A stretch of DNA of 20,006 nucleotides from positions 1-20,006 of the IMG/VR virus record IMGVR_UViG_3300037808_000478, one strand, 5' to 3'. Made by a program: the position numbers and the translations under genes. The first letter of the stretch is position 1; each line of letters begins with the position of its first letter. The stretch is from a virus. Under the pieces are notes generated by a model, which saw only the letters and a list, made by a program, of their open reading frames with translations, was not told the origin of the DNA and did no database searches. Positions 6,426 through 20,006 of this stretch are shown here, piece by piece.

Positions 6426-9400
6426 ATGTCTAACAACATTACAATAAATACAAATCAGAATCCTTACTTTGATGATTTTGATGATAATGACAATTTTCAT
6501 CAAGTCTTATATAAGCCTTCATTACCAGTACAGGCTCGAGAATTAACTACACAACAGAGTATTCTTAGAGATCAGATTAAGAAATTTGGAGATCATGTTT
6601 TTCGCAACGGCAGTAAAGTAACTGGTGCTGATCTTGTTCTGAATTTGGATTATGAATATGTTAAATTGAAGCCACAATACAATGGTGTTAATATTGATGT
6701 TTCTGGTTTTAAAGATAAAACTATTAATGGTGCTCAATCTGGAACTAAAGCTTTAGTCTTAGGTGTTGTTTCGGCAGATTCAACTACAGGTGATCCAGAT
6801 ACAGTATTTGTAAAATATATAACTGGTGGTTCTGTAACTGATAAAGTGCAGGGTATTAATGTTACTACAGGTGGTAATAGTTATATTACTGCTCCAACGG
6901 TTAGTATTACTGGCGGTGGTGGAGTTGGTGCAGAAGCAACTGCTATGATTAGTGGTGGTTCAGTTATTGCTATTAATGTTACAAATAAAGGTTCAGGATA
7001 TACTTCTGCACCAACCGTTAATTTTTCTGGTGGTGATGGTGTAGGAGCTGCGGCAACTGCTACGATTTCAACTGCAGCTGCATTTCTTTCGGGTGAAAGA
7101 CTATGTTCTACTGACCTTAGTATTTCTGCAAATGTGGTTGATGGAACACCAACAAATTTACAGACAATAAATGTATCTACTGGTGGTGCTGGATATACTT
7201 CAGCTCCAGCTGTTACTATCTCTGCTCCTCCTGTAGGCGGAACACAAGCAACTGCTACATCAACAATCTTTAACGGAATTGTTACATTAATAACAATAAA
7301 TAATCAAGGTGCTGGATATACTTCTGCACCAACTGTTACGGTGGGTGCAGCACCAGCGGGTGGTGTTACTGCAACAGTTGAAGCTATATTGGCAACATCT
7401 ACTGGTAAAGGTAGTTCTGTATCTATTGATGAGGGTGTCTTTTATGTTAATGGTAACTTTGTTAAAACAGCGAAACAAACTGTCATTTTAGATAAATATT
7501 TTAATGACCCATCATATAAGATTGGTATCTCTGTTTCTGAAACTGTTGTTGAGTCTGGTGATGATTCTACCTTACTTGACAATGCACAGGGTTCTTCAAA
7601 CTTTGCAGCACCTGGCGCAGACCGATTGAAACTAGCAGTAAATCTTTCTAAATTAACACTGGCCTCAACTGATGATACAGATTTCTATGAACTACTTAGA
7701 ATTAATAAGGGAATTAAAGAGAAAGATATTGCAGTTCCAGTTTATTCTACATTAGAAAAAACATTTGCACGAAGAACATTTGATGAGTCTGGAAGTTATA
7801 CTGTAAGGTCTTTTAATATTCAGTTGAAAGATGATCCAGAAGATGATACGAAGTTTATCGTAAGACTTGATCCCGGCAAAGCATTTGTAGAAGGTTTTGA
7901 ATATGAAACACTTATTTCAATAGACTTAAAAATAGATAAAGCAAGGTCAACTGTAAATATTAGTGGCTTTGATAGAAAAATGCAGTATGGAAATTATGTT
8001 ATTACGAAAGAATATAATGGATTGTTTGATATTACATCTCAACAGGAAGTTGATTTACATAATGTAGTTCATGGAAGTTTATTATTAACTAATTCTACTA
8101 CATATGAAAATACAAAAATAGGTACAGCTAAGGTAAGAAATATTGATTATGTTTCTGGAACTGGTGTAAATCTATTAACTAATGTTTATCTCTATGACAT
8201 TAAGATGACGAGTTCGACTTTTGCATCTGTTGAATCTATTATTGTTCCTGAGTCTCCTTTGTCTGGCCCAATTTCTATTACTGCAAAAGCAAACATTGAT
8301 GATAGTGGTAAGGTTGGTGGTACTGCTGGTGGTGATACTAAACTCTTTGAAACATCTGATAACACATTGGTTTTCAAACTTCCACAGGACACCATTAATA
8401 CTATCCGTGATAAAGATGGAAATGTAGATACACAATATACAATAAAAAGAGTTTTTAAGAGTGTACAGTTTGATGGTACTGGTTCTGCTTCTATTACAAG
8501 TTCTGGTTCAAGTGAGAAATTTTCTGGAACGGGCGAATTAAGTCTTTCCAATAAAAGAGAAGATTACCTTATAACGGATGCATCAGGTGCTATTGTTTCT
8601 TTGGATAGTGGAACTGCAATAGTGTCATCACCCGCAAGACAAACAATAACATTTACTACTGGTGGCCCTACTAATTTTATAGGAAATATTATTGCAACAC
8701 TTAATATTGATAATAAACAGGAGAAAGTAAAATCAAAAGTAAGTAATCATGTTAAATCTTTTGCTACACCAAACACTACAAATTTATCGTCAGATGATTT
8801 AGCTATATCTGATATATGGGAAATAAACGGGATTTATGATTCTGGAGATATTAATACAGCTGCTACACTTCCAACATTGACTGTTGGTAATACAGGTGAT
8901 ACGTTAACAGTTGGAGAAACGATTACTGGTTTGACTTCTGGTGCTAAAGGCACAGTTATAGAAGGTGCTGGTGGAAGTACATCTGTCACCTATGTTCCAA
9001 CATCGGGTACTTTTGTTGCTGAGAATGTTACGGGTGCATCATCTGGTTTTACTAAAGTTGTTTCCTCTGTTGCCGCTGGTGATACAGATATCAGTTCAAG
9101 ATATGAGCTTGATAATGGCCAAAGAGATAGTTTTTACGATCATGGTTCTATAAAATTAAAGGCAGGAGAAACTGCACCTACTGGACAAATTAAAGTAGTA
9201 TTTGATTATTTTTCTCATTCTGGTGTTGGTTATCTTTCAGTTGATTCTTATACCTCAGCAGTTGGATTTAATAATATTCCTAAATATAAAAGTCCTGTAA
9301 CTGGTGAAGAACTTGAACTTAGAGATTGTGTAGACTTTAGGCCAAGAAGAAACAATAATTCAGATACTATTGGAAATATTGAGTTACCTGTTCCAAATTC

Positions 9401-12077
9401 AAATTGGGAAGCTGACTATAGTTATTATCTCCCAAGAGTAGATACAGTTTATTTAAGTAGAGAAAGAAAGTTCGGTTCTAATAAAGGAACACCTTCTTTG
9501 AAAACAATACCCCCTTCAAGACTTGATGGGACAATGAATCTCTATACTATTTACATTCCTGCTTTTACTTTTAAAGCAAGTGATGTAACTACACAATATA
9601 TAGAAAACAAAAGATACACGATGAGGGACATTGGTAAGTTGGAAAAACGAATTGCTAATGTAGAGTATTACACTTCTTTATCATTGTTAGAAAAAGATGC
9701 TGAGTCATTGGTAATTAAAGATACTGCTGGTTTGGATAGATTTAAAAATGGATTTTTGGTAGATGGTTTTAATGGTCATAGTGTTGGAAATGTTCTGAGT
9801 CCAGATTATAAATGTGCTATTGATTTTGATGAAAAGATTTTACGTCCAAGCTTCAACTCCGAGATTACTGATGTTTATTATGATTCAACCGAATCTGTTG
9901 GAGTACAAAAAACTGGTGATTGTATTACATTGCCATATACTACAACTCCACTAGTTAACCAGACTATTGCAAGTAAAGCAATTAATGTAAATCCATTTGC
10001 AGTATTAGCTTGGGTTGGTAATATTGATTTAACACCTCCAAGTGATAACTGGATTGACACCACAACAAATCCAGAGGTAGTTGTAAATCTTCAAGGTGAA
10101 AATGATGCTTGGGAAAGTTTAGTTGGTTTATCATTTGGAACACAATTTAATGATTGGCAAACTATAGGAACAGGAAGGGAAAGAGTTTTAGCTACTAATA
10201 CAAGTACAGATAGAAGGGCAGCATTTCCTTTTATTAGAAGAAGAACTTCACAGACAGTTGAAGCTCAGGTAACACAGACAAGAACTGGTATCAGGAATGA
10301 GATTACTGGTGTTGATACTGTAAGGAATAGTATTGGTGATAGGATTGTTGATGTTTCTGTTGTTCCTTTCATTCGCTCTAGGGATTTGATTGTTAATGTA
10401 AAGGGAATGAAACCAAATACAAGAGTGTATGCATTCTTTGATAGTGAAGATGTTTCAGCATTCTGTACGCCTTCAGGTGGTTCATTGGGTGATGCAATAT
10501 ATACGGATGATGGTGGTTCTATTTCTGATTTAAAATACAATATTCCAAATTCAGATACACTTAGATTTAGAACTGGCGAAAGACAATTTCTTTTAGTTGA
10601 TAATATTCAGGGTGATTTAATCTCAGCTTCAACATATGCTGAAGTAATTTATGCAGCACAGGGATTACTTCAGACAAAAGAAAATGTTGTAGTATCATCA
10701 AGAGTTCCAAGAGTTCAGTCATTTGGACAAGGTAGTGCTACTGAATTTAGAACTACAACTAATACATTCAACCGCGTTAATGTTGGTGGTTGGTTTGATC
10801 CATTGGCTGAAACATTTCTGGTTGATGAAGCATTATATCCAGATGGAATTTTCCTTTCAGATATTGATTTGTTTTTCAAATCAAAAGACGATGATGGACT
10901 ACCAGTAACAGTTAATATCAGAGACACCTTGAATGGTTATCCTGCTAGAGTAGTATTACCATTTTCAGATGTTTCTAAGTTTCCTGCTGATGTTAATGTA
11001 AGTGAAGATGCAAGTGTTGCAACTAAGTTTACTTTCCCTTCATTGGTTTATTTACAGCCCGGCGAGTATGCAATTGTTGTATTGAGTAATAGTTTGAAGT
11101 ATGAAGCATATATTTCTGAGATGGGTGAAAATATTATTGGGACAAATAGAAAGATTTCTGAACAACCTTATGCTGGTGTATTCTTTAAATCACAGAACGC
11201 ATCAACATGGAGTCCAGACCAAAATCAAGATTTAACATTTGTATTAAATTATGCTGAGTTTACAATAGATAATAGTTCAGCAGCTGCTATATTTAAAGAT
11301 GGTGTTGTTGGTAGTGAGTTCCCATCTAGTACAAAATATAAAGCAGATATTGTTCAGCTAGTTCCTCAAGAAGTTAGGATAAACAATACAGGTGTATTTT
11401 GGAGTATAAAAATGACTAGTGAGGATGGAGCTAGTCCTCCAGTAAAAACTCTTGATACAGATTTTGAACCTGTTATTCAGAATACTAATTTTCAACTTGC
11501 TTCTCAAAAAGTAATATCAGGAAAAGAAACAACAACATCAGAAGGAACATATATTTCTAAAGCACAACTTGTATCTACTAGTAAGTTTATTAGTCCAGTA
11601 ATTGATACTGCTAGAAATAGTGTTATTACTATTGAGAATGTTATTAACAATCTCACAACCAATGAAGAAAATACTGCAGGGGGTGACTCGACAGCAAGAT
11701 ATCTTACTCGCCGTGTTAATCTTAAAGACGGATTTGATGCAACAGACATCCAAGTTTTTATGACTGCTAATAGACAAGCTGGATCAAAAATATCTGTTTA
11801 TTATAAAGTATTATCACAATTTGATAATGATACATTTGACAACAGGCCTTGGACTTTAATGAATGAATCGACAAATACTAATGCTGTTTCTGCTTCAGAC
11901 GAATTGGGCGAATATTTGGAACTTGAATTTTCACCAGTTGGGGCAAATGCTAATTATGTATCTAATGGTGTTACTTATGATAGTTTTAAAACATATGCAA
12001 TTAAAATTGTTATGACTTCACCAAATACAACTAAAGTTCCTTTGATAAAAGATTTGAGGGCCATTGCGTTAGCATAA
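6426..12077 (+). CDS. Giant virion structural protein, DUF4815-like N-terminus
   Basis: The product is 1,883 residues. Its N-terminus ([20 protein letters not shown], then [20 protein letters not shown]) has the pattern of the DUF4815 phage structural family: a P-x-QARELTxxQ motif followed by a beta-rich [11 protein letters not shown] segment. Residues about 148-323 hold four [15 protein letters not shown] repeats. [16 protein letters not shown] module lies near residue 825. Near residue 1460 is [13 protein letters not shown], then [10 protein letters not shown] and [11 protein letters not shown], which recur in large phage tail proteins. There is no signal peptide or membrane segment. The gene occupies the slot after gene 8 where T4 has genes 9-12. 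I infer a peripheral baseplate or fibre-attachment role, in place of recognisable gp9/gp10/gp11. Enzyme activity is not evident. Confidence 0.8.
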
Positions 12078-12079
12078 TT

Positions 12080-12286
12080 ATGAAAACAGTAAAAGTAGAA
12101 GAAACACAATATGTCCGTGATGTTAATTCTAAAGCAATTCTTAATACAAATTTGAAAGCTTTAGAAAACTATAAAATAGAAAAGAAAAGAAAACAAGCCG
12201 AAATAGATGATATAAATAATATGAAACAGGAAATTTCTGAAATTAAAGAAATACTCCAACAATTATTAGGAAAACAAAATGGCTAA
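12080..12286 (+). CDS. Small coiled-coil protein, unknown
   Basis: This 68-residue protein begins two bases after the preceding stop and overlaps the start of the next fibre gene by eight bases, so it is almost certainly co-translated with both. Residues about 28-63 form a heptad-like, charged helix (KIEKKRKQAEIDDINNMKQE, then ISEIKEILQQLL), consistent with a coiled coil. The N-terminus contains QYVRDVNSKAILNTN. Its place between a baseplate-linked protein and a fibre gene suggests a virion or assembly role, but this is inference. I cannot name the family. Confidence 0.75.
   Translation: MKTVKVEETQYVRDVNSKAILNTNLKALENYKIEKKRKQAEIDDINNMKQEISEIKEILQQLLGKQNG
12211..12218 (+). promoter_or_regulatory. 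Possible internal late promoter for the first fibre gene
   Basis: TATAAATA lies inside the coiled-coil gene, 60 bases upstream of the fibre start at 12279. The match is exact, but AT-rich coding DNA yields such octamers by chance, so support is weak. Confidence 0.25.
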
Positions 12287-13664
12287 ACTAGTACAGAGGC
12301 GTAGAGGTACAACAGCAGAACATACAATCTTTACTGGTGCTGAAGGTGAGTTAACGCACGATACTGATAAAGAAACCATCGTGATACATGATGGTACTAC
12401 AGTAGGAGGATTTCCTTTAGCTAGAGAAGATTTAGATAATGTTAATTTGTTAAATAGAATAAGTGTAGCGGAACTTGCTACATCTGATGGTGGTGCTGGA
12501 CAAGTACTGCAAACTGATGGAAGTGGGAATCTTTCTTTTGTAGATTTTGATGTTGCTGGTTCTTCTGTTGGTGGTGATTTAACTGGTACTGTATCTAATG
12601 CACAGATAGGTGTTAATAAGGTAGGTATTGCAGAACTTGATGTTACTGATGGTCTTGATGGTCAGCTCCTTACAACAAATGGAAGTGGTGTATTATCTTT
12701 TGAAAGTCCTTCTTCTATTGCCCTTGGCGGTGATTTATCAGGGACAACTTCTAATGCACAAATACTTGCAGGTGCAGTTGAAACAGCTGAGTTAGCAACA
12801 GATGCTGTTACTACGATAAAAATTACAAATGCAAATGTAACTTCTGATAAATTATCAGCGGATTCTGTAACGACATCTAAAATTGCTGATGCAAGTGTAA
12901 CAACAACAAAAATTGCTGATTCAAATATAACAGTTTCAAAGATGGCTACAGGATCAGTTAGAAGTGTTAATATAATTGATAATAATATTTTAACTCAACA
13001 TATTGCTGATGCACAAGTAACGAAATTAAAAATTGCTGATAATTCAGTTGATGTTGCTAAGTTAGATGCGACAGATGGTAACAGTGGTGATATACTTTCT
13101 ACTAATGGTTCTGGTGTTCTTTCTTTTATACCACAGCTTACATCATTAGCAGTTGGTGGTGGTATTTTAACTGGTACTACTGATAATGCAGGGGTAGCAA
13201 ATAGTTCAATATTAAATGCTATGCTTGCAACAGGAATTGATGCCAGTAAATTAACAGGTGCTATTTCAGGTAGTGTAACGGGTCTTGGTGGAGAAAATTT
13301 TACTTCTTCATTTACTCTTAATGTTAGTGCTACCACTACGAGTGTAACTAATTGTCCATTTGAACCATCACTTGTTCTTTTTGGAGCGCTGGGTGTAGGT
13401 TCTAATAGTGATAGTGGCTCTATTGGTGGTGGTAGACTCGCTTCTCAAGCTTGTTTTAATTCACAAGCATCTCAGGATGGCGGTGGAGAGTTAGATGTTG
13501 TATTTGTTTTGAAGCGGTTTAATAGTGGGACTAGTTTATTTGATTATATATCATATTCACTTACTGCTTTTTTATCAAATGGTTTTACTTTGCAGAGGGA
13601 CGATCTGACAACTACTAGTGGATTTACTAATAATCAGCCTGTTCAATACATGGCATGGAGTTAG
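12279..13664 (+). CDS. Tail fibre with Mtd-type N-terminus and decapeptide-repeat shaft
   Basis: Residues 1-50 (MAKLVQRRRGTTAEHTIFTG, EGELTHDTDKETIVIHDGTT, GGFPLARED) match the N-terminal domain of major tropism determinant-like fibres, a trimerising virion-attachment module. Three longer repeats of pattern DGxxGQxLxTNGSGxLSF...GGxLxGT follow. Between residues 171 and 260 lie nine consecutive ten-residue units such as KIADASVTTT. The last ~120 residues (from FTSSFTLNVS) form a distinct, repeat-free tip, probably the receptor-binding part. There are no catalytic motifs. The protein is paralogous to the one at 14014-15153. It is followed by a small accessory gene whose true start lies just after its stop. 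Confidence 0.88.
   Translation: MAKLVQRRRGTTAEHTIFTGAEGELTHDTDKETIVIHDGTTVGGFPLAREDLDNVNLLNRISVAELATSDGGAGQVLQTDGSGNLSFVDFDVAGSSVGGDLTGTVSNAQIGVNKVGIAELDVTDGLDGQLLTTNGSGVLSFESPSSIALGGDLSGTTSNAQILAGAVETAELATDAVTTIKITNANVTSDKLSADSVTTSKIADASVTTTKIADSNITVSKMATGSVRSVNIIDNNILTQHIADAQVTKLKIADNSVDVAKLDATDGNSGDILSTNGSGVLSFIPQLTSLAVGGGILTGTTDNAGVANSSILNAMLATGIDASKLTGAISGSVTGLGGENFTSSFTLNVSATTTSVTNCPFEPSLVLFGALGVGSNSDSGSIGGGRLASQACFNSQASQDGGGELDVVFVLKRFNSGTSLFDYISYSLTAFLSNGFTLQRDDLTTTSGFTNNQPVQYMAWS
12789..13058 (+). repeat. Nine tandem 30-bp units (decapeptide repeat array)
   Basis: The same ten-residue periodicity as in the second fibre, here starting ELATDAVTTI and ending KIADNSVDVA without any break in phase. 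Nucleotide identity between units is moderate, so the array is old or under protein-level selection. Confidence 0.85.
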
Positions 13665-13672
13665 GAGATAAT

Positions 13673-14002
13673 ATGAAATATATATGCGTAGTAAAATCTA
13701 CAGGAGAATTTTTAGAAGAACAAACTGGTTGTGTACCTGGCACAATGATTCAGAATTCAGTTAATGGTGGATATGATGCAGCTGATCTTGAAGAAAAAGA
13801 AGTAACGAATGAAGAATTTGTACAAATGTTAAATGATATATATGAAGCATCATTAACATATCAAGACCGCAGAAGAGTAGAATATCCTTCTATTGATGAG
13901 GTAACAGTAGCACTAGCAGAGAAAGAAGAAGGCGACTCTACAATGTGGGATGAGGTAACTGCTAAAAGACAAGCTGTAAAATTAAAATATCCTAAATCAT
14001 AA
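13673..14002 (+). CDS. Fibre-associated small protein, likely chaperone/accessory (module copy 1)
   Basis: I place the start at ATG 13673, not at the in-frame ATG 13655 inside the fibre gene, because TAGGAG (13663-13668) sits five bases before it. The protein then begins MKYICVVKSTGEFLEEQTG and has 109 residues. The C-terminal 38 residues (YPSIDEV... MWDEVTAKRQAVKLKYPKS) line up with the C-termini of the proteins at 15719-16123 and 18177-18566, although the QLDM core is here EVTVAL. Each of these genes lies in the fibre region, twice directly behind a fibre or adhesin gene, which suggests a tail-fibre assembly helper or a minor fibre component. The N-terminal half is unrelated to the other two. 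Function is inferred from position only. Confidence 0.75.
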   Translation: MKYICVVKSTGEFLEEQTGCVPGTMIQNSVNGGYDAADLEEKEVTNEEFVQMLNDIYEASLTYQDRRRVEYPSIDEVTVALAEKEEGDSTMWDEVTAKRQAVKLKYPKS

Positions 14003-14013
14003 GGTTATAGAAA

Positions 14014-15153
14014 ATGGCAAAAATTGTAAGAAGACGAAGAGGGAGTACAACTGACCACGATGTTTTTACTGGTGATGAGGGTGAGATTACTGTTGACATT
14101 ACTGAAAAAACTCTAAGAGTGCATGACGGTTCAACTGTTTCTGGTATTCCACTTGCTAGAAAAGATATGGGTAATGTTTCCAATGCAGTTGGTATAACAC
14201 AACTTACTGTAAGTGATGGTACGCCGAATCAATTGTTATCTACAGACGGTAGTGGTAATCTACAGTTTAGTAATGCACCAGATGTTTCAGGTGCTTCGGT
14301 AGGTGGTGATATAAGTGGCACTATTGGTAATACACAGATTGTTGCTAACGCTGTCGGAACTCCAGAACTTGCTGATAATGCAGTAGTGTCTGCTAAGATT
14401 GGTACTGGAGAAGTACAACAAACAAATCTTGCTGCTAATTCTGTTGGTACTGCACAGATACAACTTAATGCTGTTACTGTTAATGAATTAGGCCAACAGT
14501 CAGTACAAGAAGCAAAAATACAAACGGGTGCTGTTACTAATACTAAAATAGCAGATAATTCTGTAACAACTGTAAAAGTTCTTGATGCAAATGTAACTGC
14601 TGATAAACTAGCAACAGATGCTGTTACAACTGTAAAAATTCTTGACGGAAATGTAACCGAACCTAAAATAGCAGACAATGCTGTAACAACAAATAAAATT
14701 GCTGACGGAAACGTAACTGTTGATAAATTAGCTAGTTCTGGTGTTTTGCCAGCATTGGATGGTAGCAATTTGTTAGGTATTGAAGGTGTTCCTTCTGGAA
14801 TTATTGCAATTTGGAGTGGCAGTATAGCAACAATACCTAATGGTTGGGTTATATGTGATGGTACTAATTCTACTCCAGATTTAAGAGATAGATTTGTTAT
14901 TGGTGCTGGTTCAGGACAAGCAGTTGATGCAACAGGTGGTTCTACAAGTACTGGTGCTCATACATTGACTATTGCACAGATGCCTTCACATACTCACTCT
15001 GGACAACAGGCTGGTGGGCCTAGAGCGGACGGTGATAATCAGAAAATTGTTGGTAGTGGAAGTACAACGGGTGCTACTGGTGGTAGTGGTTCACATACTC
15101 ATACTGGCTCATTACCGCCTTATTATGCCTTAGCTTATATTATGAAAACATAA
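14014..15153 (+). CDS. Tail fibre, Mtd-type N-terminus, decapeptide shaft, phage collar C-terminus
   Basis: Residues 1-50 (MAKIVRRRRGSTTDHDVFTG, then EGEITVDITEKTLRVHDGST, SGIPLARKD) are paralogous to the fibre at 12279. A DGxxNQLLSTDGSGNLQF unit follows, then twelve consecutive ten-residue repeats (residues 118-237; e.g. KILDGNVTEP, KIADNAVTTN). From residue 260 there is a phage tail collar domain (PSGIIAIWSGSIATIPNGW, CDG, TPDLRDRFVIGAGSG), ending LPPYYALAYIMKT as in this family. Two HTH motifs (residues 326-328 and 361-363) resemble the HxH metal-binding motifs of T4 gp12 and gp37. The product is most likely a trimeric receptor-binding fibre. The start is supported by AAGG at 14001-14004. 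Confidence 0.9.
   Translation: MAKIVRRRRGSTTDHDVFTGDEGEITVDITEKTLRVHDGSTVSGIPLARKDMGNVSNAVGITQLTVSDGTPNQLLSTDGSGNLQFSNAPDVSGASVGGDISGTIGNTQIVANAVGTPELADNAVVSAKIGTGEVQQTNLAANSVGTAQIQLNAVTVNELGQQSVQEAKIQTGAVTNTKIADNSVTTVKVLDANVTADKLATDAVTTVKILDGNVTEPKIADNAVTTNKIADGNVTVDKLASSGVLPALDGSNLLGIEGVPSGIIAIWSGSIATIPNGWVICDGTNSTPDLRDRFVIGAGSGQAVDATGGSTSTGAHTLTIAQMPSHTHSGQQAGGPRADGDNQKIVGSGSTTGATGGSGSHTHTGSLPPYYALAYIMKT
14365..14724 (+). repeat. Twelve tandem 30-bp units (decapeptide repeat array)
   Basis: In-frame units of exactly 30 bp encode ten-residue repeats of pattern K-[IVL]-x-D-x-[NAS]-V-T-x-x. The last six (14545-14724) are the most regular; the first six are degenerate. The array probably forms the fibre shaft. 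Confidence 0.85.
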
Positions 15154-15170: not shown

Positions 15171-15722
15171 ATGATTACTGAGAAGGATTTACTTAATGAT
15201 AAGATAACAACCATACATAATTTTTTAACCCCAAAAGAAGCAATTGATTTTTGGTATTTAACTAATGAATGTACATGGAATTATGGCAGAGTATCCAATA
15301 CATTCTCTAGTCAGAAACAAAAGAGAATGACTTATAATTTTGATCCTGACTATTTTATACAAACAGATTTATGGAAAAGATGTGATAAGTTATTTACAGA
15401 TGATATATCTTTGAGTCATGCCTATATAAATTATTCAGATCATGCAACTGTAAATCTTCCACATTCAGACGGTAAAGATAATGGCCCTACTATATTATTA
15501 TGTTTGAATCAAGAATGGAAAAGAGATTGGGGTGGATACACAGTAATGTTTAAAAATATGAATAGTAATGATATTGTTCATGCTGTTTCACCAGAACCGG
15601 GCAAAGCAACTATTTTTAGGGGTTCTATGTGGCATTCAGGTACTCCTGTAGCACATTATGCTGATTATCCCAGATTTATGTTAACTATACATTGTTTTAT
15701 AGAAAAGGAAATTAATAAATGA
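15171..15722 (+). CDS. 2-oxoglutarate/Fe(II)-dependent oxygenase
   Basis: This 183-residue protein has the complete metal and co-substrate signature of the double-stranded beta-helix oxygenases. The iron ligands are H98-x-D100 (in NLPHSDGK) and H155 (in MWHSGTPV), with R168 (YPRFMLTIH) placed 13 residues after the distal His to bind 2-oxoglutarate. W/G-rich strands lie between (DWGGYTVMF). Length is normal for a stand-alone phage enzyme. AAAGGAG (15159-15165) gives a strong start, and the stop overlaps the next start as ATGA. The enzyme would couple oxidation of 2-oxoglutarate to hydroxylation of an unknown substrate. Its place among fibre genes suggests a virion protein or a cell-surface sugar or lipid as target, but this is inference. 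Confidence 0.88.
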   Translation: MITEKDLLNDKITTIHNFLTPKEAIDFWYLTNECTWNYGRVSNTFSSQKQKRMTYNFDPDYFIQTDLWKRCDKLFTDDISLSHAYINYSDHATVNLPHSDGKDNGPTILLCLNQEWKRDWGGYTVMFKNMNSNDIVHAVSPEPGKATIFRGSMWHSGTPVAHYADYPRFMLTIHCFIEKEINK

Positions 15723-17030: not shown

Positions 17031-17038
17031 TATAAATA
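17031..17038 (+). promoter_or_regulatory. Candidate late promoter before the 17108 gene
   Basis: A second exact TATAAATA lies in the same gap, 69 bases upstream of the ATG. The 70 bases between hold a leader with AAAGGA at 17095-17100 and no other gene. Confidence 0.6.
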
Positions 17039-17107: not shown

Positions 17108-17434
17108 ATGGCTACTAACACGTTTAAAAATGCAAAACAAATTGGTGTAACCACTCGTACAGATGTTTATACAACTCCTGTTGGTAAAGATAGTATTATT
17201 CTTGAATTGGATATTTCTAATACTGTAAGTTCTAGTGTTACTACATCTGTAGAAATGTTTGACTCAACTGATTCATCATATGCATATATTGTTAAAGATG
17301 CTCCAATCCTAGTTGGGTCATCATTACAGGTCATTTCAGGACAAAAAGTTATCCTTGAAAGTGGTGATAAGGTTAGTGTAACATCTTCAGCGGCTGTTGA
17401 TGTTGTTTGTTCAATCCTCGAAGATGTTAACTAA
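17108..17434 (+). CDS. Small all-beta structural protein, unknown
   Basis: This 108-residue protein has its own late promoter candidates and a good RBS (AAAGGA, seven bases before ATG). The sequence alternates hydrophobic and polar residues throughout (e.g. DSIILELDIS, SLQVISGQKVILESGDKVSV), with no Cys-rich, catalytic or membrane features, so an all-beta sandwich fold is likely. Its independent promoter suggests it is needed in larger amounts than the neighbouring fibres, as for a decoration or fibre-collar protein. That is inference; I cannot name a family with confidence. Confidence 0.75.
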   Translation: MATNTFKNAKQIGVTTRTDVYTTPVGKDSIILELDISNTVSSSVTTSVEMFDSTDSSYAYIVKDAPILVGSSLQVISGQKVILESGDKVSVTSSAAVDVVCSILEDVN

Positions 17435-17452
17435 TAATTGACGATAACAAAT

Positions 17453-17683
17453 AATAAACCAATTAATTAATAAGGATAAATAAATGGCTTATATAGGAAG
17501 ACAATTTCAAGATGCGGTGCCAGCTGATGGCACGGTTACGAAAGCTAAAGTATCATCCGGTGACTTTGTAACAGACTTTACTGATACAGTTATCACAGCC
17601 TCAGATGAGATTATATTTGCTGACGCTACCGATACACAGGCTGAGAAAAAAGATACTGTTCAAGGTATTTTGGATTTGGTTCC
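17453..17683 (+). repeat. Direct repeat copy A: leader plus adhesin N-terminus
   Basis: From AATAAACCAATTAATTAA through the RBS and the first ~66 codons, this copy closely matches 18756-18988. Differences are mostly single bases plus small in-frame or leader indels. Homology stops at the codons for GILDLVP. Confidence 0.9.
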
Positions 17684-18164
17684 TGCCCCTGCCACAGCAA
17701 CTCTTGGCACACCGTATGCAACAACTTCTGGAACTACGTTTACAACTCATTCTGGTATCCCATCTGGCACTAAACTGTTATTTATTACATTGAGTGGTAT
17801 ATCAGGATCGGGAATTCAGAATTTGACATTGAGACTTGGTGATTCTGGCGGTATGGAAGCATCTGGGTATACAAGCACTGGTGCTAAAATAGTTACAACT
17901 ACTCCAAGCCTAAGTTCAGATACTATAGGATTCAGGATTAGAATGGATGTTGCGGCTCTTACGCATAGTGGCTTAATCATCCTTGCTCTTGCAAATAGTT
18001 CAACAAATACTTGGGCAATGTCGTCTACCACAACTGGTAATACTAATCAGATTGAGTGGAGTGCAGGTAAAAAGTCTTTATCTGGAGAGCTTACTCAGAT
18101 AGGATTGCACTTGGCAGGCGGGGAAACTTACGATGCCGGGGCTATCAACATTGTATATATTTAA
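17484..18164 (+). CDS. Modular adhesin/tail fibre, tip type 1
   Basis: This 226-residue protein has two parts. Residues 1-67 (MAYIGRQFQDAVPADGTVTK, AKVSSGDFVTDFTDTVITA, IIFADATDTQAEKKD, GILDLVP) are almost identical to those of the 18786 gene. They contain one decapeptide-like unit and are presumably the virion-attachment and trimerisation part. Residues 68-226 are unrelated to that paralogue, Gly/Ser/Thr-rich and beta-patterned (LLFITLSGISGSGIQNLTLR, then RLGDSGGMEASGYTSTG), ending INIVYI. They are probably the receptor-binding tip. Base composition is clearly less AT-rich than genes before 17 kb. The ATG is preceded by AAGGA, and the next gene starts 12 bases after the stop with a strong RBS. 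Confidence 0.82.
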   Translation: MAYIGRQFQDAVPADGTVTKAKVSSGDFVTDFTDTVITASDEIIFADATDTQAEKKDTVQGILDLVPAPATATLGTPYATTSGTTFTTHSGIPSGTKLLFITLSGISGSGIQNLTLRLGDSGGMEASGYTSTGAKIVTTTPSLSSDTIGFRIRMDVAALTHSGLIILALANSSTNTWAMSSTTTGNTNQIEWSAGKKSLSGELTQIGLHLAGGETYDAGAINIVYI

Positions 18165-18176
18165 GAGGAGGTTAAG

Positions 18177-18566
18177 ATGACATATAAAGTAATAGTAGAT
18201 TTTGATGAAAATAATAAAATAACAAAATATCAGGATGTAGACACAGAGGAAGAGGCTATTGCTCATGTAGCTAAAGTGGTAGATAACTACCCTAATGCTT
18301 TCTATGTATTAGATACTTTCCAAGGCAATATGTTTGATTATCTGGTGGTAGATAGTGTTAATAAAACATTAACACCTAACGATACTCAGTTTGCTATTGA
18401 CGAGACTGCTATTGAGGATGCAAAACCCTACGATATTAAAAGAAAAGAGGCTTATAGTTCTATTGTGGATCAGCTAGATATGCAGTACCACGACATCATC
18501 AACGCCACGACTACTTGGGTAGACCACATTCGGGCTGTAAAAGCCGCTTATCCTAAGGGGGAATAA
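18177..18566 (+). CDS. Fibre-associated accessory protein (QLDM module copy 3)
   Basis: This 129-residue protein has the strongest RBS of the window (GAGGAGG at 18165-18171, five bases before ATG). The C-terminus (YSSIVDQLDMQYHDI, then TTTWVDHIRAVKAAYPKGE) shares the module described for 13673-14002 and 15719-16123. The N-terminal ~85 residues differ (MTYKVIVDFDENNKITKYQD; VDNYPNAFYVLDTFQGN). It directly follows an adhesin gene. The end of this gene is much richer in G+C (31 of 60 bases at 18481-18540 by hand count) than the equivalent gene at 15.8 kb, which fits separate acquisition. Confidence 0.78.
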   Translation: MTYKVIVDFDENNKITKYQDVDTEEEAIAHVAKVVDNYPNAFYVLDTFQGNMFDYLVVDSVNKTLTPNDTQFAIDETAIEDAKPYDIKRKEAYSSIVDQLDMQYHDIINATTTWVDHIRAVKAAYPKGE

Positions 18567-18572
18567 CCCAAT

Positions 18573-18760
18573 ATGAGTACGACAAAGGTTTCACCAGCAC
18601 TAGAGGCGGAAGATATTAAGTTTATTAAAGCTCAGGAGACAGGAGCCGACACTACTGCCATAGTCACTGAAAAACCCGATTGAGAGACATTACAAACGGG
18701 GCTGATACGGCTACAACCTTAGACGAATTACTAGCCTTGAAAGCTAAACAAGGGGAATAA
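18573..18760 (+). pseudogene. Small ORF split by a -1 shift (frameshifted gene or two overlapping ORFs)
   Basis: An ATG at 18573 opens a 36-codon frame (MSTTKVSPALEAEDIKFIKA, then QETGADTTAIVTEKPD) that stops at TGA 18681-18683. In the -1 frame, starting at a TTG (18680) that overlaps this stop, a 26-codon frame runs to TAA at 18758-18760 (LRDITNGADTATTLDELLAL, KAKQGE). Together they read as one ~62-residue acidic/helical protein. Three readings are possible: a broken gene, a sequencing or assembly error, or coupled ORFs at TTGA. No canonical slippery heptamer is present at the junction (GAAAAACCCGATTGA). AAGGGG before the ATG could serve as RBS. The only other content of this 219-base gap is the leader of the next adhesin. 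Confidence 0.55.
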
Positions 18761-18988
18761 ACCAATTAATTAAAAGGATAAATAAATGGCTTATATAGGA
18801 AGAGGATTACAAGATGCTGATGCTCCGGCTGATGGGACTGTAACAAACGCTAAAATATCATCAGGTAACTTTGTCACAGACTTCACCGATACAGTTATCA
18901 CGGCTTCAGATGAAATTTTATTTGCTGACGCTACCGATACACAGGCAGAGAAAAAAGATAATATTCAAGGTATTCTGGATTTGGTTCC
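18756..18988 (+). repeat. Direct repeat copy B: leader plus adhesin N-terminus
   Basis: This is the partner of 17453-17683. The match begins at the TAA of the split ORF and continues through the leader, RBS and first ~67 codons. Both copies are in the same orientation about 1.3 kb apart. Confidence 0.9.
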
Positions 18989-19499
18989 AGATAACACCCC
19001 CTCTATATCCGATAATGGCTCAAGTGGTGGGATGGTTATTTCTTCAGCACACGAAATTACTATGCCTCTACAACCTTGTTTCCACGCTTACATTAATTCG
19101 ACTCAGAACAATGTAACTGGTAATGGGACTTCGTATGACGTTACAGGGGCAATTTGGACTGAGACTTTTGACCAAAACGCAGATTTCAGCAACGGAACTT
19201 TTACGGCTCCCGTAAGTGGCAGATATCTTTTGCAAGGTGTTTTGCATCTGAATGGGATTGCTTCTTGTACGGATTTCACCGTTAAGATGGTCACAAGCAA
19301 TAAGACATTTCAGGCTTACAGAATTGATCTTGCCGCGGTAGGAGCATCGTCTGGTATTACTATCGTGTCGTTTGGTTTTGTGGCAGATATGGATTCCGCA
19401 GACACAGCAAAGATAAATATACAGGGATATAACGTAGGGTCAGATACGGTAGATGTCACCGCTACAAATTCGCTCTTTATGGGTTGCCTTTTAGCCTAA
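18786..19499 (+). CDS. Modular adhesin/tail fibre, tip type 2 (C1q-like)
   Basis: This 237-residue protein has an N-terminus (1-68) nearly identical to that of the 17484 adhesin. The C-terminal ~140 residues, from about residue 95, have the pattern of a C1q/TNF-like jelly roll: a start PCFHAYINSTQNNVTG, then FDQNADFSNGTFTAPVSGRY followed by LLQGVL, and an aromatic/Gly-ending last strand (NSLFMGCLLA). FTAP-x-x-GxY is the family's best landmark. C1q-like tips are trimeric and occur in phage receptor-binding proteins, so this is likely an alternative receptor tip on the same stem. The copy-B leader precedes it. The stop is followed by 16 bases and then the first MILTQRQLD gene. Confidence 0.85.
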   Translation: MAYIGRGLQDADAPADGTVTNAKISSGNFVTDFTDTVITASDEILFADATDTQAEKKDNIQGILDLVPDNTPSISDNGSSGGMVISSAHEITMPLQPCFHAYINSTQNNVTGNGTSYDVTGAIWTETFDQNADFSNGTFTAPVSGRYLLQGVLHLNGIASCTDFTVKMVTSNKTFQAYRIDLAAVGASSGITIVSFGFVADMDSADTAKINIQGYNVGSDTVDVTATNSLFMGCLLA

Positions 19500-19515
19500 T
19501 CAATATAGGGATATT

Positions 19516-19707
19516 ATGATATTAACACAAAGACAATTAGATGTATTAAACCACATAGTAGAAGACGGACAGACTTGGGCTGATAACGCTAAAGAGGCGA
19601 GTGATACGGCTCATGTTGTACTTCAAATGACGGGAGGCTCTAACAATGCAGATATTCAAGATACTTCTCCCGGCTCAACCTATTTCTCAGGAGCTTTGTT
19701 AGCATAA
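19516..19707 (+). CDS. Chimeric small ORF: truncated MILTQRQLD gene fused to a fibre-end-like tail
   Basis: This 63-residue ORF begins MILTQRQLDVLNHIVEDGQT and matches the gene at 19707 over about 33 codons, with mostly silent changes and one three-codon difference. After that its sequence is unrelated to the 19707 gene. Its end (STYFSGALLA) resembles the end of the preceding adhesin (SLFMGCLLA), and its stop overlaps the next start (TAATG) just where an adhesin stop would be expected. It looks like a recombination scar that happens to stay open. Whether it is expressed as a functional peptide is unknown. AGGG lies upstream of the ATG. Confidence 0.6.
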   Translation: MILTQRQLDVLNHIVEDGQTWADNAKEASDTAHVVLQMTGGSNNADIQDTSPGSTYFSGALLA

Positions 19708-20006
19708 TGATATTAACTCAAAGACAATTAGATGTATTAAACCACATAGTAGAAGACGGGCAGGCTTGGGCAGATAATGCTAAAGAGGAAGCTCACGTTC
19801 TGGCGAAGGTTGCTAAATATGAAGCTGAATATGATGCTTCTGTTTTATCTGGCAATTACAGGAATAGAGTTGAGCGAGACTTGGATGCTTTGCCACCCCC
19901 TCTAACAGCTTCGGAGCAATGGAAGGTTGACATTAGAAGCTCACCTATGAACCGCAACCGTGAAGATTTTATTACAGAGGTAATGGCAGGAGTAGCAGAT
20001 TCTCCT
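19707..20006 (+). CDS. Small accessory gene downstream of adhesins, unknown (partial, runs off the end)
   Basis: The ATG at 19707 overlaps the preceding TAA. The frame is open for 100 codons to the window edge. It begins MILTQRQLDVLNHIVEDGQA, continues through an Ala/Glu-rich helix (AKEEAHVLAKVAKYEAEYDA) and reaches LPPPLTASEQWKVDI, then NREDFITEV. The predicted helical, acidic N-terminus, together with its place directly after adhesin ends, suggests a fibre accessory or chaperone role. I do not recognise a family. This appears to be the intact copy; the ORF at 19516 is its truncated duplicate. Confidence 0.7.
   Translation, partial: MILTQRQLDVLNHIVEDGQAWADNAKEEAHVLAKVAKYEAEYDASVLSGNYRNRVERDLDALPPPLTASEQWKVDIRSSPMNRNREDFITEVMAGVADSP

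Follow-up and report, generated by a model that had tools for sequence, protein, structure and literature searches.

We interpret the fibre locus near the end of the window, i.e., the whole 20,006-nucleotide stretch of DNA analysed here, with good though not full confidence as a tail-fibre cassette array, in which the stem has long been duplicated, both fibres are probably made together, and cassettes are lost or exchanged at their joints. Each cassette would comprise a conserved N-terminal stem and a variable tip that presumably binds a receptor, in most cases followed by a small accessory gene specific to the tip; the stem is probably the virion-anchoring part and the accessory gene probably an assembly chaperone for its tip. 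The population was sampled by three contigs, all from metagenomes: the window, L003 (IMGVR_UViG_3300024261_000119, a 29-kb fragment running beyond the window end and 99.6% identical to the window across 10,774 bp) and L004 (IMGVR_UViG_3300037808_000847, a 16-kb fragment which begins downstream of the first two fibres, A and B, and is uninformative on them). The following features of the locus were assigned:

17031..17038, plus strand: T4-late-promoter-like TATAAATA, upstream of the run; its placement is suggestive only
17108..17434, plus strand: conserved flanking gene, 108 aa; in relatives, a MAY(I/L)GR-type fibre usually lies directly behind it
17453..17683, plus strand: repeat copy A with leader, RBS and stem, from the repeat comparison
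17484-18164, plus strand: fibre A gene, open reading frame
17484..17684, plus strand: fibre A stem, codons 1-67, from the alignment; tract 17588-17615 carries five synonymous differences from L003
17685..18164, plus strand: fibre A tip, GDSGGxExSGY family by sequence
18177..18566, plus strand: accessory gene A; C-terminus corresponds to phrog_9114/1787, N-terminus to a family found behind some tip-A genes elsewhere
18573..18760, plus strand: broken small ORF (MSTTKVSPALEAEDIKF...), a relic with a fibre-type start
18756..18988, plus strand: repeat copy B with leader, RBS and stem, from the repeat comparison
18786-19499, plus strand: fibre B gene, open reading frame
18786..18989, plus strand: fibre B stem, codons 1-68, from the alignment
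18990..19499, plus strand: fibre B tip, predicted C1q/TNF-like jelly roll (predicted fold); tract 19001-19019 differs from L003
19516..19707, plus strand: chimeric relic ORF, in which 27 codons from the start of accessory gene B are fused to the ~36 3′-terminal codons of another C1q-like tip
19707..20006, plus strand: accessory gene B (MILTQRQLDVLNHIV...), cut by the window end and complete at L003:10475-10831

Fibres A and B are encoded side by side; the 5′ ends of the two genes are conserved, whereas their 3′ ends are unrelated. Their direct repeat is the strongest in the window (17453-17683 and 18756-18988; 88.0% identity, 234 bp, E = 1e-74) and spans the leader, the RBS (AAGGA), the start codon and 67 (A) or 68 (B) codons. 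At the protein level the stems are 87% identical, and beyond the residues LVP no meaningful alignment of the tips was obtained; the longest exact run shared by the two copies measures only 30 bp. These data bear out the sequence-only reading, which had described a direct repeat of ~230 bp over leader, RBS and ~67 codons followed by unrelated tips, and the accessory gene it had located between the fibres (18177-18566) is present. A search with the stem gave no match at E 1e-5 among 50,697 phage records and none in bacterial and archaeal genome contigs, the exact leader pattern was found in IMG/VR in L003 and L004 only, and neither fibre received a Pfam or NCBIfam domain name.

The window is DNA of a marine T4-like bacterial virus. 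Nearest to its gp6-like baseplate protein are those of the Pelagibacter phages HTVC008M and Mosig and of the Methylophilales phage Melnitz (38-40% identity), and by sequence the phage appears to be related to the Pelagibacter and Methylophilales myophages. Just upstream of the fibre locus, 6426-12077 encodes a homologue of VrlC of HTVC008M (41% identity, 764 aa, E 9e-169), and the small gene following next also has an HTVC008M match. The host recognition cluster of pelagimyophages starts directly after VrlC, the neck gene gp14 being the criterion for its end (PMC7029224). We place the fibre locus within this cluster, because the published cluster begins right behind VrlC (PMC7029224); the locus lies after VrlC in the structural region and holds several variable fibre genes. 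In HTVC008M itself, no MAYIG-type stem start was detected in the six translated genes after the VrlC region, and this isolate thus offers no direct copy of the layout. The window contains a second paralogous fibre pair (12279-13664 and 14014-15153), whose members both start with Mtd_N (PF18454), share 42% identity across some 256-283 aa and are separated by an accessory gene (13655-14002), i.e., the same stem/accessory layout as in A and B at greater age. Inside the fibre cluster, 15171-15722 encodes a 2OG-Fe(II) oxygenase (PF13640 above and an FlmC-like NCBIfam model below cut-off), a gene type also listed for marine phage islands.

Tip A is a member of the very common GDSGGxExSGY phage tip family, with 230 confirmed stretches in IMG/VR. 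Among the 109 genes of this family in the loci examined, stem A occurs only in the window, L003 and L004; a single-linkage clustering of their stems chained to one large cluster and was not used, and neither was the predicted fold of fibre A (mean pLDDT 39) for judging the earlier description as a "Gly/Ser-rich beta tip". The converse layout, one tip family on different stems, is seen in L050, L055, L094, L098, L107, L110 and L111, where three tandem genes carry tip-A-family tips on differing N-termini. Accessory gene A is a putative assembly chaperone. Directly behind tip-A genes, its N-terminal half is found again in L004, L048 and L059, with weaker matches in L047, L052 and L058, so that accessory family A accompanies tip A on some further stems; it is missing from most tip-A genes elsewhere (detected for 5 of 109 by BLAST, counting the window and L003, and for three more by profile). 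No named chaperone family was detected among the matches of the accessory genes, which were to phrog_9114/1787 with no assigned function.

For tip B, the earlier label "C1q-like" is backed by the predicted fold, a C1q/TNF jelly roll in the model, which matched C1QL structures with a Foldseek probability of 1.00 and TM-scores on the target of 0.73-0.77 (tip pLDDT mostly 60-80). Fibre B gave no hit to PF00386 (C1q) at the curated cut-off of 23.7, and its tip relatives in L044 and L025 scored 18.8 and 17.2 against this cut-off. Tip-B homologues are found on other N-termini in L025 and L020, followed by the same accessory-B family.

The layout recurs in a relative, L020, in which two MAY(I/L)GR-type fibres share a 499 bp repeat at 90%, are 91% identical over their first 162 aa and differ in their tips thereafter, again with an accessory gene in between (L024, identical to L020 across 13,662 bp, was not counted as independent). 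Weaker tandem fibre pairs occur in L018, L021, L022, L033 and L037. Synonymous divergence between the stems is considerable both in A/B (dS 0.50, dN 0.07) and in L020 (dS 0.35, dN 0.04), and both stem copies are under long-standing purifying selection. The duplication would accordingly date far back, with both copies kept ever since.

The window and L003 differ at 44 positions in 10.8 kb, and these differences are strongly clustered: stem A has five synonymous changes within 28 bp, the beginning of tip B has five changes within 19 bp, and accessory gene B contains a diverged tract (19702-19880). The last 500 bases alone hold 24 of the 44, mostly in accessory gene B, and the stop of the chimeric ORF is changed. 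Such clusters likely stem from exchange with unsampled relatives; a search of copies B and D revealed no source for the five-difference tract in stem A.

Past the window end, L003 continues with accessory gene B, a fibre C with a different start (MTTTKV...), accessory gene C and fibre D (L003:12146-13639), which carries the third stem copy with an insert after MAYIGRELQDAD; no further strong stem copy was found in this record. In their long matching blocks, L003 and L004 reach 98.6-99.8% identity, yet they differ structurally in two places. L004 is devoid of fibre C and accessory gene C; its junction falls within GGGGCTGATA, a 10-bp repeat that L003 has at either end of the missing segment, and creates the hybrid ORF MTTTKVTGALQEDGTKGAD-TATTLDELLALKAES. 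In the simplest reading, fibre C and its accessory gene were deleted in the L004 lineage. Furthermore, the tip borne by stem D is tip-A-like in L004 and a different one, E, in L003, the switch occurring exactly after LVP, while tip E has its own start in L004 (MSTQKV...; 99.4% identity with the L003 tip E, 359 aa). Loss of 1.2 kb in the L003 lineage would explain this most simply; we nevertheless leave the order of events unsettled, because the end of stem D in L003 shares an exact run of 26 bp with stem A. Of the two observed breakpoints, one thus falls in a 10-bp repeat and the other on the stem/tip boundary, neither of them inside a stem repeat. The earlier proposal that tips are lost or swapped together with their accessory genes by recombination between the repeats is therefore supported as regards the loss and exchange of modules at the end of the shared stem, as seen in L003 and L004, but loss or swapping through the A/B repeat itself was not seen. 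The long fibre (L003:14615-18067, 1150 aa; L004:4145-7195, 1016 aa) also varies between the two contigs, its shaft length differing by an in-frame block of ~400 bp inside its repeats. The accessory gene at L004:1336-1770 is itself a mosaic with an N-terminus like accessory gene A and a C-terminus (AKILLRGNKPI) like accessory gene B.

In the window itself, two small ORFs look like scars of cassette loss or exchange events. The broken ORF at 18573-18760 overlaps a segment (18627-18824) of which L003 has a second version, 95% identical, ahead of its third stem; the regions upstream of B and upstream of D are 95% identical over 205 bp, including a 119-bp exact run. The chimeric ORF at 19516-19707 is associated with a second short repeat (19513-19597 and 19704-19788; 85 bp, 93%). 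Its last 37 residues reached a score of 70 with L044, where 500 shuffles gave at best 51, and of 54 with L025 (best shuffle 52); with fibre B itself the score was 46, no excess over the best shuffle of 57. On this comparison, the ORF reads as the remnant of a lost second C1q-type cassette. These relics, the short repeat and the third stem had not featured in the sequence-only reading. Taken up into the proposed mechanism, cassette loss and tip exchange would proceed at the stem/tip boundary and at short repeats at gene starts and ends, and hybrid or broken small ORFs would be left behind.

The motif TATAAATA occurs seven times in the window (3.4 expected), always on the plus strand and for the last time at 17031. 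None was found between this position and L003:18108, past the 1150-aa fibre, nor any terminator-like site from 16900 to the window end. Fibres A and B are therefore likely co-transcribed, and simultaneous display appears likelier than switching, because both genes share one run without an internal late promoter or terminator. One late transcript would probably yield both fibres and hence a particle with more than one binding specificity.

A different view is that homologous recombination between stems A and B regularly removes or replaces tip A along with accessory gene A and thereby acts as a host-range switch in the population. In its favour are the direct orientation of the repeat, the fact that tips have naturally been exchanged and a cassette lost close by, at the third copy, and the clustered differences between the window and L003 at the stem ends, which suggest exchange at these sites. 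However, the longest exact match between A and B is 30 bp at 88% identity, both genes are kept in the window and in L003, leader and stem searches of IMG/VR gave no A/B deletion product, none of the three contigs joins stem A to tip B, and the lack of a terminator or internal late promoter between A and B as well as the breakpoints outside the stem repeats speak against it; we regard it as unlikely. Still less probable is that the second fibre was acquired recently as a transient duplication. The high protein identity of the stems could be read in this way, and the 119-bp exact run between the B leader and the third copy indicates that some exchange at the locus is recent, but the synonymous divergence of the stems (dS 0.50) stands against 44 differences in 10.8 kb between the window and L003, which have both genes in common, and L020 shows the same layout. 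The earlier suggestion of a recently gained second tip is consequently not upheld.

Short-read assembly is known to go wrong at repeats, and every sequence here is a metagenome contig; the copies, or what distinguishes one contig from another, might thus also be artefacts. This, too, is very improbable: the window and L003 are concordant across A and B, 12% of sites differ from one copy to the other, the layout of L020 is independent, and the junction homology of only ~10 bp between L003 and L004 would, judging from how assemblers work, be too little for a k-mer join. Two known switching devices were likewise considered and rejected. For tropism switching by a DGR, no RVT_1 was found in the 29-kb L003 and 16-kb L004 fragments (control genomes gave a signal), and for an invertible fibre cassette of the Mu/P1 type, only weak inverted pairs of 15-20 nt with 75-87% complementarity were seen. 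A more far-reaching and quite improbable idea is that the repeated stem, leader and accessory ends are maintained as dedicated joints, so that a standing reservoir of tips with their chaperones would be reshuffled at high frequency within the population. If true, this would amount to tip shuffling at the DNA level without invertase or reverse transcriptase.

The tail-fibre cassette array we favour has several known counterparts. In the branched tail-spike loci of Ackermannviridae, adjacent receptor-binding genes likewise have conserved 5′ ends and unrelated tips, and recombination yields N-terminus/tip chimeras and gene loss (PMC11414711). These phages keep four tail-spike genes, and experimental addition of a fifth led to such chimeras by recombination (PMC11414711); the earlier assumption that tip exchange usually leaves a single gene is therefore not general. 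Unlike in Ackermannviridae, the stem here is a 67-aa module and small accessory genes follow the tips; XD/TD-type domains (XD2/XD3, TD1) were not found in fibres A and B by Pfam and NCBIfam search. As in the host recognition cluster of pelagimyophages and cyanomyophages, many tail-fibre genes follow a VrlC homologue and are hypervariable among relatives (PMC7029224), and in marine phage islands C1q, XkdW, Fe(II)-oxygenase and fibre genes recur and are variable (PMC3909814). Whereas these published clusters and islands describe regional variability (PMC7029224; PMC3909814), the present analysis resolves the unit of stem, tip and accessory gene, the repetition of its stem and, from contigs that are nearly identical, two junctions. 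Mosaic phage receptor-binding proteins similarly show recent tip exchange on near-identical N-termini in close relatives (PMC10684548), but here two or three copies reside in one genome. In Alteromonas phages A5 and V22, a fibre tip and its downstream accessory gene were transferred together (PMC10579305), as may be the case here; in contrast to those fibre-chaperone modules, the accessory genes of this locus match no named chaperone family.

Multi-fibre loci with shared 5′ ends, tip exchange and joint transfer of fibre and chaperone are thus all known, and the array is a clear and well-resolved new example of them. For abundant marine phages, it resolves how the hypervariable fibre region is built, i.e., one stem, several tips, and visible joints and scars between near-identical genomes, with accessory genes that tend to accompany their tip. 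Given reads, one could count directly, in a wild population, how often tips are naturally exchanged and at which joints.
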